Positions 7,371-11,650 of a stretch of 12,204 bases of DNA are shown here, piece after piece. The stretch is from the NCBI GenBank assembly GCA_016209155.1, contig JACQWU010000064.1, forward strand, positions 1 to 12,204. The letters run 5' to 3'. Positions within the stretch are counted from its first letter, which is position 1, and each line of letters starts with the position of its first letter. This DNA is from Candidatus Desantisiibacteriota bacterium (GTDB lineage Bacteria > JACRDZ01). The notes under the pieces were generated by a model that worked only from the letters and a program-made list of their open reading frames with translations, was not told the DNA's origin and ran no database searches. The translations under genes were made by a program, and so were the position numbers.

Positions 7371-7805
7371 ATGAATTTACTTGAAAAAACAAGTATTGCC
7401 GCAATTATTGTGTTGTCCACTTCCATTGTATTTATTTTATTTACTTCCTCAAAAAATACCGGCTCAATAGAGCAGGCTGAAAAAGAATTATCCTCTTTAA
7501 TATCTGATAGCACTCTCATCAAACGTATGGCAGCAGAAAAGCATCTTACCAGCGGAAGAAAATATAAAAAGAGCGAAGAATTTATTGAAGCTATTGATGA
7601 ATATTATAAAGCGGGAAAACTTCATCCTGATTATATGGACGCAAGCAGTAAAGATTTTCTCGGTGATGAGCTAAAAGAGGTTATAAAATTTTCCATTGTA
7701 AAATTAAACCAGAAACTCAAGATGAATCCGGACGACAAAAATATCATTTCACGGCTTAAAATCATATACAAAATGGAAAAACGTTTTGGGCAGGGGTGTG
7801 AATAG
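7371..7805 (+). CDS. Small membrane-anchored TPR-like protein (144 aa), function unknown
   Basis: I do not recognise a named family. Residues of about 6-26 form one hydrophobic N-terminal helix (TSIAAIIVLSTSIVFILFTS) preceded by a short charged start, so the rest is probably outside the membrane anchor on the periplasmic side. Residues of about 48-95 look like a tetratricopeptide-type helical hairpin (AEKHLTSGRKYKKSEEFIEA IDEYYKAGKLHPDYMDA), and a second partial repeat follows near NPDDKNIISRLKIIYKME. Such small TPR proteins usually serve as protein-interaction scaffolds. It is 29 bp downstream of the CheY-like gene, which hints at a shared function, but this is inference. The ribosome site is weak (GGTGC). 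Confidence 0.7.
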   Translation: MNLLEKTSIAAIIVLSTSIVFILFTSSKNTGSIEQAEKELSSLISDSTLIKRMAAEKHLTSGRKYKKSEEFIEAIDEYYKAGKLHPDYMDASSKDFLGDELKEVIKFSIVKLNQKLKMNPDDKNIISRLKIIYKMEKRFGQGCE

Positions 7806-7880
7806 GTAATTACAACAAACTTGAAATATCAAACATTATATTTGACTTTTCAATGTAAAAAAGTTTATTGGAAGAAAAAA

Positions 7881-7985
7881 AGAGTATCTCACAGAGCGCA
7901 CAGAGATCACGGAGAAAAAAGTAAAATAAAATCTCTGTGACCTCCGTGAACTCTGTGAGAAATAATATATCCTCCGTGAGAAATA
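7881..7985 (+). repeat. Structured direct repeat, copy A (upstream of GxxExxY gene)
   Basis: Copy A of a ~105-bp repeat. Stem arms CTCACAGAG (7888-7896) and CTCTGTGAG (7951-7959) are perfect complements, and the inner CACGGAG (7908-7914) pairs with CTCCGTG (7942-7948). The loop is A-rich (GTAAAATAAAA, shared with copy B). A third, unpaired CTCCGTGAG follows at the end. The copy stops about 14 bases before the GxxExxY start codon; AAGGAA at 7988-7993 serves as its ribosome site. Confidence 0.75.
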
Positions 7986-7998
7986 AAAAGGAAATCAG

Positions 7999-8379
7999 AT
8001 GACTGAAAATGAAATCGGCACAATTGTAATCGAGACATGTATCCATATTCATAAAGAACTTGGCCCGGGATTACTGGAATCTGTTTATGAGTCAATTCTT
8101 TTTCATGAATTGAATAAAAAAGGATTAAAAACTCAAAAGCAAGTACCTGTTCCTATTATTTTTGAAGAAATTGAATTCGAAGAAGGATTCCGTGCCGATT
8201 TAATTATTGAAAACAAGGTAATCATTGAATTAAAATCTATTGAAATGATCAACAATGTGCATAAAAAGCAACTATTAACTTATTTAAAATTATCACACTT
8301 GAAACTTGGGTATCTTATTAATTTCAATGAAGAATTATTAAAAAACGGTATTACAAGGATAATCAATGGCAAGCTGTAA
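7999..8379 (+). CDS. GxxExxY-family protein (PD-(D/E)XK-like nuclease fold, 126 aa)
   Basis: The family signature G-x-x-E-x-x-Y is at residues 24-30 (GLLESVY) in LGPGLLESVYE. The later part has a PD-(D/E)XK-like catalytic pattern: D67 (FRADLIIE), E77-x-K79 (IIELKS) and Q91 in the next helix (KKQLLTYLKL). The full length is normal for the family (TIGR04256 / PF13366). Biochemical function is not established; a nuclease fold is inferred. It is commonly found as multiple scattered copies in environmental genomes, next to CACAGAG-type repeats (recalled, not checked here). Here it sits exactly between two direct copies of such a repeat, as if the repeat and gene formed one insertion unit of about 530 bp. 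The start is fixed by AAGGAA five bases upstream of the ATG. It shares no operon-like spacing with the upstream TPR gene (193 bp). Confidence 0.9.
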   Translation: MTENEIGTIVIETCIHIHKELGPGLLESVYESILFHELNKKGLKTQKQVPVPIIFEEIEFEEGFRADLIIENKVIIELKSIEMINNVHKKQLLTYLKLSHLKLGYLINFNEELLKNGITRIINGKL

Positions 8380-8410
8380 ATGATTATAACCCTGTGAGAA
8401 ACAAGAAAAG

Positions 8411-8516
8411 AGAGTGTCTCACTGAGCACACTGAGAACACGGAGAAAAAAAAGTAAAATAAAACCTCTGTGAACTCTGTGTCCTCAGTGAGAAAAATATG
8501 TCCACCGTGAGGAAAA
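8411..8516 (+). repeat. Structured direct repeat, copy B (upstream of radC)
   Basis: Same orientation as copy A, 530 bp downstream, with 29 of the first 34 bases identical by eye. The outer stem is CTCACTGAG (8418-8426) with CTCAGTGAG (8483-8491); relative to copy A, the sixth base of the left arm changed A to T and its partner T to A, so pairing is kept. The inner CACGGAG (8438-8444) pairs with CTCTGTG (8474-8480) through one G-U pair. The final block (CACCGTGAGG) ends next to the radC start. Confidence 0.75.
8507..8512 (+). promoter_or_regulatory. radC: Ribosome-binding site of radC supplied by the repeat
   Basis: GTGAGG, the last part of repeat copy B, lies 7 bases before the radC ATG at 8520 and is the only Shine-Dalgarno-like sequence there. 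If used, the repeat has provided the translation signal of a chromosomal-type gene. Confidence 0.4.
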
Positions 8517-8519
8517 ATC

Positions 8520-9179
8520 ATGAAAAAAATTAAAGATCTACCCACAAAAGAACGCCCCCGCGAGAAACTTCTTGAAAAGGGCGCCGAAGCGCTTTCAGAT
8601 CAGGAATTGCTGGCAATTATTTTAGGAAAAGGTTCGAAAAAAAATGATGTGCTGTCTCTTTCAAATCTGTTGATTAAAGCTATCGATGAAAAAGGGATAA
8701 AATTGCAGGCTAAGGATATCCTTGATATTGACGGGATTGGCGAAGCCAAAGCAACAGCAATTGCCGCGGCTTTTGAATTTGTAAGAAGACGAATAAAGCC
8801 GGAAGGGTTAAAGATTAAATTCCCTGTGGATGTATTGCCTTTAATCCAGCACTATGGCGACCGCAAGCAGGAGCATTTTTTATGTATATCCATCAACGGC
8901 GCCAATGAAGTCATGAATATCCGGGTGGTAACCATCGGCCTGATTAATAAAAGCCAGGTTCACCCCAGAGAAGTATTCGCCGATGTAATAGCAGAAAGAG
9001 CCTCCGCAGTAATAGTCGCGCATAATCACCCCAATGGCGATTTAAATCCAAGCAACGAAGATATAACTATAACCAAAAGGCTTAAAGAAGCCGCCAACCT
9101 ATTGGGCATAAGCCTGTTAGACCACATAATATTCAATAATAAGGGATACTATTCCTTTGTTGAAAATAATTCATTGTAA
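8520..9179 (+). CDS. radC: RadC family (JAMM/MPN+ domain) protein, complete (219 aa)
   Basis: The N-terminal part starts IKDLPTKERPREKLLEKGAE and has the usual UPF0758/RadC helices, then a helix-hairpin-helix (ILDIDGIGEAKATAI, about 67-81). The C-terminal JAMM metalloprotease-like domain is intact: E118 (QEHF), then HNHPNGDLNPSNED with H168, H170, P171, S178 and D181 matching H-x-H-P-x-G-x(3)-P-S-x(2)-D. The protein ends normally (GYYSFVENNSL). Despite the name, RadC has no proven DNA-repair role; homologues are frequent in mobile elements and defence islands. In this window it is bounded on the left by a structured repeat and on the right, after about 24 bp, by the remains of a GajA-like nuclease, so it may mark the edge of an inserted or deleted segment. 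Confidence 0.95.
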   Translation: MKKIKDLPTKERPREKLLEKGAEALSDQELLAIILGKGSKKNDVLSLSNLLIKAIDEKGIKLQAKDILDIDGIGEAKATAIAAAFEFVRRRIKPEGLKIKFPVDVLPLIQHYGDRKQEHFLCISINGANEVMNIRVVTIGLINKSQVHPREVFADVIAERASAVIVAHNHPNGDLNPSNEDITITKRLKEAANLLGISLLDHIIFNNKGYYSFVENNSL

Positions 9180-9202: not shown

Positions 9203-9929
9203 GAGGGAATCATGGTGTTCTTGAGCAATTATATCGATATTAGCCGAAAAGAGCAATAAAGATTTAGAAGATAATCATATCACAGTTATAAATATTGGAG
9301 GGCGATATTTTGATCATTTTTTGAAAATGTTTGATAGTTATGAAAAAAACACAATAAATAAGAAAATTGCTTGTGTGACTGATTTAGATCCACAAAGGAA
9401 AGATAAAACTACGGGGAAATATAATAAGTGTTACCCTTTTGAACTGGATGTTGATATGGAAAAATATGAGTATCAAAGCAGCTCCAATCCATTGGTAGAT
9501 AAGTATAGTAAAGTTAAAAATCATCCAAACATTAGATGTTTTAGTCAACCATCTGGTATTGGGAAAACCTTTGAATATGAGTTGATTTTATACAACTCTG
9601 ACAATGAGATTCTTTTGACTGATAGCATGTCAAATTTGGAAGAAATAAAGAACTTAATGGAAGCATGTAAAGATAAAAATCCAATTGATGAAATGTTAAC
9701 CATACTAAGAGATGGGAATGAAGAAAATGAGAGAATAAAAAAATCAATTGTATCAAATGCTGAATGGGATGAAGACAAAAAAAGAAAACATATTGTAGCT
9801 GCGCGTTATTTAAACTCTGTAGGTAAAGGTGTAAATGCGCTTGAAATATCTCAAAAGCTAGAAAAAGTCGAAAGTAACATTGTAGTTCCGGACTATATTA
9901 AGGAAGCGGTTGAGTGGATATGCCAGTAA
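9203..9929 (+). pseudogene. gajA: 5'-truncated GajA-like OLD-family nuclease (TOPRIM part only)
   Basis: The open frame begins after a TGA at 9222-9224 and runs to 9929. In-frame residues read AIISILAEKSNKDLEDNHIT then VINIGGRYFDHFLKMF, and IACVTDLDPQRKD carries the TOPRIM D-x-D pair; this is the C-terminal half of an overcoming-lysogenization-defect (OLD) nuclease. The conserved TOPRIM Glu-Gly seems to be present as AEGI at 9200-9211 but in another frame, so one or more small indels separate it from the rest. The whole N-terminal ABC-type ATPase domain is missing: radC ends only 24 bp earlier. Possible translated starts for what remains are TTG 9321 and ATG 9327, with GGAGGG at 9297-9302 too far from them; the fragment would be about 200 aa. 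With the overlapping UvrD-like helicase downstream, this is the layout of a Gabija operon (GajA-GajB) whose nuclease gene has been cut. Confidence 0.75.
9901..9906 (+). promoter_or_regulatory. gajB: Ribosome-binding site inside the gajA remnant, for gajB
   Basis: AGGAAG lies 7 bases before GTG 9914 and 13 before ATG 9920, so it favours the GTG start and a 16-base overlap with the upstream frame, typical of translational coupling. Confidence 0.45.
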
Positions 9930-11650
9930 AACCAATATTACTAAAAAATTCTGATGAGATACTTAAAAATATTGAACACCATTTTAAGGTCGTAGCTGGC
10001 CCAGGAGCTGGGAAAACAAGATGGTTAAGTAATCACATAAAAAATGTGATGGGGAAATCAGAGCGGCTAAGTAAGTGTCGGAAAATAGCGTGCATTACTT
10101 ATACAAATGTTGGCGCTGATACAATTATAAAGAGGCTAGGCGATTCAATCGATAAGGTTGAGGTAAGCACTATTCACAGTTTTTTATATAAGCATGTTAT
10201 TAAACCATATATTTTTCTGATTAAAGATGAGTTTGGGCTTGATCCTGCAAAGATTGACGGCCATGATGAATTAATTCCTTCAAGTGGGATTATTCAACAA
10301 TGGAAGAAAAAAACAAGTCAACAATATTTAAGTGATATTAAAGCGGTGATAAAAGCATTATGTGATTTATGTTGGAAATTCTCCGATAATAAAGAAGAAA
10401 TAGAATTAAAATTCACATATATATGGTCTGGTAAGGTAGCCTCATATAACATAAAGGGGAATTCCTTAATTGAATATAAAAAAATATTTTGGGAACGAAA
10501 TCAGTTACACCATGATGACGTATTGTATTTCAGTTATACATTGCTTAGGAGATTTCCTGATATTTTACGAATTATGAGATCTAAGTTCCCATACTTTTTT
10601 GTTGATGAATTTCAGGACACAAATCCTATTCAGACAGAAATTATTAAGATGCTTGCAAAAAAGGAGATTATAGTCGGAGTAATTGGAGATAAAGCACAGT
10701 CAATTTATGCGTTTCAAGGAGCAGATGTTAAACAGTTTGAGGAATTTGAATTACCGGATATGCTTACATATAAAATAGAAAATAATCATAGAAGTACGGA
10801 AGAAATATTATCAGTTTTGAATTTTATCCGCAAGGATATTGCGCAGCATAGTCCCGATAATAAGCACGGACAAAAACCATCCATACTTATTGGGGCAGCA
10901 TTAAACTCTTTTAAAAAGGTGAAAGAAATTGTCGGTTCTGATAATGTATGCACATTAAGCTATGCAAATGTAACCTCATGTGAAATGAAAAATGAATATG
11001 CTGGAGCTGGTGGGGCGGATCTCTTAGTTGAGCTGTTGTCTGTTGATACATCTGAAAGAGGGAAAATAGTAGCATCTCTTATCAAAGGAATTGAATACGC
11101 TAGACAGAATAAATTTAAGGATGCAATTAAACAAGTTTCGCGAAATTTCAAAGAAGCAGATGAATTTAAAGGGCACAAGACAGCATTAAAACTTCTTCAC
11201 GCAATGTTAGCTAGGTATAACAGTTATTCTAATGGCAACTTATTTGACTTTTATACAACTTTAAGAGCTGTAGAGCTTATAGAGATTGCTAAAATTAGTA
11301 TATCGAAAAAAACAGCTATAAATACATTTTACGAGAAAACAACTTATAAAGAAATAATTATGTGGGTTAAATATAATGATGATGACAGCTTGCATAGAAC
11401 CATTCATAAAGCAAAAGGCGATGAATTTGCAAATGTATTAGTGATTATTAAAGATAAAAATAATCAGGAGTTTAATGAGGAAAAAGAATTGAGCTTTTTA
11501 TTAACCCCAGATTTAGAGAAAGAAGAACAGAGGGTGTTTTATGTCGCTCTCAGTAGAGCCAAAGAAAGATTGTTTGTTAATATTCCTGTCTTATCAGATG
11601 AAAATAGAATAAAATTAGAAGAAATGGGTTTTAATGTTGAAATATTATAA
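9914..11650 (+). CDS. gajB: GajB-like UvrD/Rep-family helicase (Gabija system, 578 aa)
   Basis: A complete SF1A helicase: Walker A GPGAGKT at 29-35; motif Ia ITYTNVGADTI; STIHSF; DEFQDT from 231 (motif II); GDKAQSIYAFQGAD from about 258 (motif III); ENNHRS (motif IV); TIHKAKGDEF around 496-505 (motif V); FYVALSRAKE around 542-551 (motif VI). It overlaps the end of an OLD-family TOPRIM remnant, which is the gene order of Gabija, where GajA is the ATP-gated nuclease and GajB the helicase that senses or processes DNA ends. At 578 residues it is somewhat longer than the ~494-residue Bacillus cereus GajB, but that length is usual in class 2 OLD-associated helicases. All catalytic motifs are intact even though the nuclease gene is broken. 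Start GTG 9914 (or ATG 9920). A generic UvrD-family helicase without defence role cannot be fully excluded. Confidence 0.82.
   Translation: MDMPVKPILLKNSDEILKNIEHHFKVVAGPGAGKTRWLSNHIKNVMGKSERLSKCRKIACITYTNVGADTIIKRLGDSIDKVEVSTIHSFLYKHVIKPYIFLIKDEFGLDPAKIDGHDELIPSSGIIQQWKKKTSQQYLSDIKAVIKALCDLCWKFSDNKEEIELKFTYIWSGKVASYNIKGNSLIEYKKIFWERNQLHHDDVLYFSYTLLRRFPDILRIMRSKFPYFFVDEFQDTNPIQTEIIKMLAKKEIIVGVIGDKAQSIYAFQGADVKQFEEFELPDMLTYKIENNHRSTEEILSVLNFIRKDIAQHSPDNKHGQKPSILIGAALNSFKKVKEIVGSDNVCTLSYANVTSCEMKNEYAGAGGADLLVELLSVDTSERGKIVASLIKGIEYARQNKFKDAIKQVSRNFKEADEFKGHKTALKLLHAMLARYNSYSNGNLFDFYTTLRAVELIEIAKISISKKTAINTFYEKTTYKEIIMWVKYNDDDSLHRTIHKAKGDEFANVLVIIKDKNNQEFNEEKELSFLLTPDLEKEEQRVFYVALSRAKERLFVNIPVLSDENRIKLEEMGFNVEIL

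Follow-up and report, generated by a model that had tools for sequence, protein, structure and literature searches.

A GxxExxY gene borne by its own hairpin arms: a probable RAYT/REP-like unit with a predicted PD-(D/E)XK nuclease

The GxxExxY gene in the window, the 12,204-nt stretch of DNA analyzed here, lies between two structured repeats, and its relatives in many bacterial phyla lie between arms that pair with each other. It is fairly probable that the unit is a nuclease gene borne by its own hairpin arms, similar in kind to the RAYT/REP-REPIN systems with an unrelated enzyme, and presumably mobile and selfish. Annotations of many genomes include GxxExxY genes but assign them no function. 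No published description of the GxxExxY-hairpin unit was found in the open-access literature by family name or by the repeat sequences. The original prediction was that the repeats and the gene may together constitute a mobile or domesticated unit, new to the literature, whose protein recognizes the hairpin. The unit is supported by the linkage of arms and gene, by arm covariation, by the co-division of arms and protein and by a shared site, whereas recognition of the cognate arms is something that we infer because protein and arms co-divide.

Repeats and hairpins in the window

A repeat search and the list of open reading frames confirmed that two repeats of about 105 nt in the same orientation enclose the GxxExxY gene alone (Table 1), and no other ORF of at least 80 aa lies wholly between them on either strand. 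The direct copies at positions 7875-7962 and 8407-8494 are 72% identical. Each contains a long hairpin with an A-rich loop, as had been proposed, formed by inverted repeats that are 83% complementary in the left copy (7887-7915/7932-7960) and 82% complementary in the right copy (8417-8444/8465-8492). RNA folding of the left and right hairpins gave -38.4 and -36.2 kcal/mol (z -6.7 and -6.2), with none of 200 shuffles as good, and DNA folding gave -18.5 and -19.0 (z -5.5 and -6.0), better than all 200 shuffles. These fold energies rule out that the window hairpins arose by chance. No Rfam 15 family matched positions 7800-8600 at gathering score.

Table 1. Features of the GxxExxY unit in the window.
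Feature	Positions	Strand	Description or basis
Left repeat, ~105 nt	7881-7985	+	Hairpin plus 3' half-arm; stem 7887-7960, A-rich loop 7916-7931
Left hairpin	7887-7960		TCTC end type; partnered arms, three 9-nt units TCTCACAGAG-CGCACAGAG-ATCACGGAG
Extra 3' half-arm TCCTCCGTGAGA, after left hairpin	7970-7981	+	Sequence
GxxExxY gene, 126 aa, predicted PD-(D/E)XK nuclease	7999-8379	+	Profiles, conserved residues, fold model
Isolated half-arm CCCTGTGAGA, 3' of the GxxExxY stop codon	8390-8399	+	Sequence
Right repeat, ~105 nt: hairpin, then 3' half-arm TCCACCGTGAGG (8501-8512)	8410-8516	+	
Right hairpin	8417-8492		Outer stem CTCACTGAG/CTCAGTGAG, paired change relative to left copy

Each window arm consists of three iterated 9-nt units, and the TCTC-type unit is located between a small ORF and radC in a hairpin-gene-hairpin form. 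The paired change in the outer stem, from CTCACAGAG/CTCTGTGAG to CTCACTGAG/CTCAGTGAG, is present in the window sequence. It had been taken to suggest that the hairpin itself is maintained; the two window copies alone are insufficient for this claim, but it gains support from the arm covariation at other loci. Just downstream of radC, at positions 9321-11650, the window also contains a C-terminal fragment of GajA (profile positions 480-685 of 687) followed by a full-length GajB, apparently a truncated Gabija anti-phage system.

A predicted PD-(D/E)XK nuclease

The ORF between the repeats is a member of the families TIGR04256 (143.9 bits, cut-off 35, E 2.5e-42) and PF13366 (139 bits, cut-off 22, E 1.2e-40), the latter (PDDEXK_3) being the sole Pfam domain recovered in a Pfam scan of the protein. 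The window protein contains the motifs E27, D67, E77-x-K79 and Q91xxxY95. Among 77 sequences, E27, D67, E77 and K79 are invariant, while Q91 and Y95 are nearly so. Since the catalytic residues are invariant in this sample, selection probably acts on the nuclease activity of GxxExxY.

The AF2 model of the protein has a pLDDT of 94.5. The best Foldseek matches were Cas4 SSO0001 (4ic1, E 2e-3), lambda exonuclease and AddAB, with E-values from 2e-3 to 2e-2, and VIA-align gave a Z of 9.8 over 100 residues for Cas4 and of 6.6 for Hjc. The protein is thus predicted to be a PD-(D/E)XK nuclease with a conserved active site and with Cas4 as the closest in fold. The match to Cas4 is moderate, and a common fold demonstrates no function. 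Searching solved structures by sequence gave nothing useful for GxxExxY. Pfam and TIGR04256 profile searches of the ORF recovered none of the DDE, HUH, serine or tyrosine recombinase domains. Membership of an anti-phage defense family was also considered and rejected, as PADLOC gave no match.

Iterated arms accompany GxxExxY genes across bacteria

We sampled 80 GxxExxY loci in named genomes from many phyla, of which 74 were usable for arm pairing. Inverted arms with a score of at least 14 bracket the gene at 48 of the 74 loci, as compared to 0.9% of 1600 control positions. The arms are built from iterated 8-10-nt units with the consensus CRCNRAG, or CRCNRAT in a divergent branch. The density of the two-unit motif within 200 nt of the gene is 6.4/kb upstream and 7.3/kb downstream, and falls to 0.02-0.08/kb at a distance of 3-6 kb; two-unit arms are present at 130 of 159 GxxExxY genes. 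The association of repeat and gene proposed for the window therefore extends across phyla. Usually, the gene occupies the loop between two inverted arms. Arm-gene-inverted arm is the commonest layout, found exactly so with strict units in 16 of 72 loci, and the hairpin-gene-hairpin layout of the window is a minority variant. In Prevotella nigrescens (L174), a divergent GxxExxY gene is flanked by short-unit repeats of the ACAAAT/ATTTGT type, possibly another arm code; such repeats recur at ten positions of this record.

The hairpin pattern is far above its reversed control in some of 290 genomes, with a maximum of 642 matches versus 1. PF13366 is carried by 31 of the 40 hairpin-rich genomes, as compared to 39 of the 250 others; no PF13366 gene was detected in the remaining 9 of the 40. 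The presence of GxxExxY is patchy (70/290 genomes), and gene-less hairpins or arms often far outnumber the gene. Plasmid records contain only six GxxExxY genes, and none was found in phage records. One genome (G011) has 108 matches to the hairpin pattern and 15 PF05635 genes with no detectable GxxExxY. Another, complete genome of 2.2 Mb contains 10 GxxExxY genes or fragments, most of them within about 40 kb (G143:C1:786477-827837).

Arm type follows the protein clade

Two types of arm ends were distinguished, TCTC, usually with 8-nt units, and TTAACC, usually with 9-nt units. In a tree of 77 proteins, 61 of them labeled (seven by hand from the flanking arms), the end type changes once, compared to a mean of 18 for shuffled labels. 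When the labels were assigned automatically (45 TCTC, 33 AACC), a tree of 159 proteins likewise had a single change, compared to a shuffled mean of 25.3 and minimum of 20. The support for the branch separating the end types is only moderate (85-87), and the trees were built on about 120 columns. The clade labels were taken from the flanks of each gene itself; assignment by the nearest labeled row was uninformative. Whether the unit ends with AG or AT changes 5 times on the tree, versus 23.4 times after shuffling. Genes from Flavobacterium are present in both end-type clades, so that host ancestry does not explain the split.

The window protein falls in the TCTC clade, and the arms of its gene are likewise of the TCTC type. 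In 16 genomes with enough solo arms for a comparison, the majority solo type equals the arm type of the resident gene in 15 (p 0.0014), the single exception being the genome of the window itself. This genome (3.08 Mb, 79% complete) has 25 matches to the hairpin pattern versus 0 for the reversed control, and one GxxExxY gene was found in it. About 20 further hairpins of related sequence are of the TTAACC end type and begin TTAACCACAGAG..., unlike the window arms, which begin TCTCAC... The genome is thus discordant, with TTAACC solo hairpins and a TCTC arm type for the only GxxExxY gene found in the 79% complete assembly. Because their end type is the other one, the window copy is not supported as the source of these hairpins.

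It might be argued that other machinery makes and moves the hairpins, and that GxxExxY is a tolerated or captured passenger at such hot spots and does not act on them. Hairpin-rich genomes without the gene would fit this explanation, as would arms that ride in a MITE-like insertion (see below) and the occurrence of a second, unrelated gene family, PF05635, between iterated arms. We consider it very unlikely, given that both the arm ends and the unit sequence are clade-specific and that the solo type tracks the resident type in 15/16 genomes.

Pairing is maintained between the two arms of a unit

Left arms pair with their own right arm and not with the right arms of other elements. The mean score of own left-right pairs is 16.95, as compared to a permuted mean of 10.22 (sd 0.34) and a maximum of 11.7 among 5000 permutations. 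In orthologous units from Flavobacterium, arms located more than 400 nt apart retain 91.5% of 29 pairs, and 5 pairs have changed on both sides, versus a shuffled mean of 1.7. The covariation in these orthologs is 0.071 versus 0.034, a value reached in 0 of 500 permutations; arm covariation was judged by permutation and pair-count tests. The covariation fits selection on the stem, whether as DNA or as RNA, and palindrome-directed conversion could contribute to it.

Occupied, unit-free and gene-less sites

In Sphingomonas parapaucimobilis, the unit is located between fabD and fabG, and in Bacteroides finegoldii between radA and a gene for an FAD protein; relatives of both species have the two neighboring genes without the unit. 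The exact insertion ends at these sites are not recoverable because the sequences have diverged. Some Flavobacterium species have arm-gene-arm at an intergenic site next to a gene that we take to be hemW, and others have a hairpin of about 80 nt without the gene. At three loci of the same site (L210, L214, L223), about 1 kb with a different gene was found, and hairpin arms accompany it in L214 and L223. Inserts of several kinds are attracted to this site.

A single cyanobacterial site, in the genus of Dolichospermum circinale, has four different occupants in different species: unit A, unit B, an inverted unit C and a 64-nt remnant hairpin. The protein identity is 66-70% for unit B and 67-69% for unit C, whereas the flanks are 89-98% identical; where the flanks match best (96-98% identical), the proteins still differ by 30%. 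The four occupants indicate that the unit is exchanged as a whole and in either orientation, and that loss of the gene leaves a hairpin. The exchange may be either by transposition or by recombination between arms. In two Flavobacterium species, solo hairpins have turned over at several syntenic intergenic sites, without clean insertion ends. No target-site duplication was recognized at the fabD and radA, hemW-side or Dolichospermum sites, where the junction flanks have diverged, and no exact insertion product was found at the sites compared.

The gain of a solo arm in Dolichospermum circinale was considered as an insertion in its own right and rejected, as the arm proved to be inside an insertion of about 110 bp with GGCGTTGCTGA-type ends that is missing from close relatives (L320:7200-7330). 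Here, the arms hitchhike in a MITE-like element.

These sites bear on the possibility that the hairpin system is domesticated, with a nuclease that maintains, trims or controls hairpins that serve the host in termination, mRNA stability or structure, and that is now inherited vertically. Many Flavobacterium species stably retain the orthologous unit on the hemW side, the active site is conserved, and the gene was not found in phage records and only six times in plasmid records, all of which speaks for such a role. Against it, diverged and inverted units replace one another between flanks that are up to 98% identical, presence is patchy in the 290 genomes, and hairpin-only states occur at the same Flavobacterium and Dolichospermum-genus sites. 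We consider domestication distinctly unlikely.

Alternatively, the unit could be an IVS-like element that works as RNA. Its arms would then pair after transcription, the stem would be a substrate for RNase III or some other enzyme, GxxExxY would be either a passenger or active on RNA, and recombination rather than the nuclease would spread the unit. In our view, this is unlikely. It draws on the location of units directly 3' of stop codons within gene strings, on PF05635 genes with the same gene-in-a-stem layout and on Coxiella, where RNase III cuts the 28-bp stem that carries the S23p ORF in its loop (PMC4990558). GxxExxY is also co-directional with agreeing neighbors in 45 of 50 cases, but this is no different from ordinary genes (204/232), and strand-biased insertion in operons was rejected for the same reason. 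In addition, the gene has the opposite orientation at one site, its fold neighbors are DNA nucleases, and an RNA passenger would not predict that protein clades and arm ends co-divide with a single change.

A model for the spread of arms and gene

In the preferred model, a nuclease gene borne by its own arms, the predicted Cas4/lambda-exonuclease-like PD-(D/E)XK protein would bind arms that are extruded as hairpins, either as single-stranded DNA at replication or as cruciforms, perhaps as several protomers lined up on the iterated units. Cleavage by the protein would take place at the arm ends, of the TCTC or TTAACC type, and thereby release or copy the unit and, in trans, gene-less hairpins, whereupon host repair would complete the insertion next to genes. 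We infer the cutting and dissemination from the fold, the copy numbers and the turnover at sites.

A more far-reaching reading, to which we give somewhat less than even credence, is that the GxxExxY family provides the first stand-alone enzymes of the PD-(D/E)XK class to mobilize hairpins. The elements would constitute a pan-bacterial selfish class that does without DDE, HUH or tyrosine/serine recombinases. Each nuclease clade would recognize an iterated arm code specific to it and would spread gene-less hairpins as well as its own gene. The genes for PF05635 four-helix bundles, likewise placed in a stem, would form a second class in parallel to this one.

The co-division with arms supplies the GxxExxY family with a testable function, and the unit would explain a common class of hairpins between genes, the CTCTGTG, CTTTGCG and CTCTGCG repeats of environmental bacteria, Bacteroidota and cyanobacteria. 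Should the hairpins be moved by the nuclease, then REP-like systems have had at least two origins, with enzymes that are not related to each other, and there is a small nuclease to study that has an apparent iterated recognition code.

Comparison with known systems

Like MITEs and classical IS elements, the unit has inverted ends, an internal gene and gene-less derivatives. It differs from them in that the GxxExxY ORF contains no known transposase domain. No target-site duplication was seen at the junctions, whose flanks have diverged.

The nuclease domains of Cas4, lambda exonuclease and AddB are the closest in fold and share the D, ExK and QxxxY motifs. Unlike Cas4, GxxExxY is only 126 aa long and has no Cas1/Cas2 or helicase partner within the unit, and a known Cas4 function is not implied. 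None of the ten window ORFs scanned is a cas gene, and the consensus of the GxxExxY family contains no conserved cysteines of the kind that characterize the Fe-S cluster of Cas4.

In the intervening sequences (IVS) of 23S rRNA, terminal inverted arms form a stem of about 28 bp with an ORF in its loop (PMC4990558), and both systems thus place an ORF in a loop made by arms. The IVS protein belongs to S23p/PF05635 and the insertion is in 23S rRNA, whereas the window unit is located between protein-coding ORFs and contains PF13366 only; the other GxxExxY flanks examined are also between protein-coding genes. Inverted arms of iterated units were observed at PF05635 loci as well (L142-L171, e.g., L152, L162, L166 and L169), with a score of at least 14 in 16 of 29. 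The unit sequence varies between the PF05635 loci sampled, whereas it is conserved in the GxxExxY family.

The closest resemblance is to RAYT/REP-REPIN systems. Inverted REPs flank the RAYT gene in every case and co-evolve with it (PMC2817692), and hairpin doublets of REPs are miniature mobile units (PMC3116915). Shared features are a small chromosomal nuclease gene, inverted palindromic flanks, the co-divergence of enzyme and repeat, and dispersed gene-less hairpins (PMC2817692, PMC3116915). Inverted flanking repeats that co-diverge with the enzyme are found for GxxExxY at the family level, the window representing the hairpin-gene-hairpin variant. RAYTs are HUH-type Y1 transposases (IS200/IS605-like), whereas the Pfam scan of the window protein recovered PDDEXK_3 only and its enzyme is of the PD-(D/E)XK class (PF13366/TIGR04256). 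As the enzyme class is different, the GxxExxY unit is not a RAYT. Also, REPs are single short palindromes with a GT(A/G)G head, whereas the GxxExxY arms are built by iteration of 8-10-nt units and have ends of the TCTC or TTAACC type, and the GxxExxY unit, unlike RAYT, is spread across many phyla.
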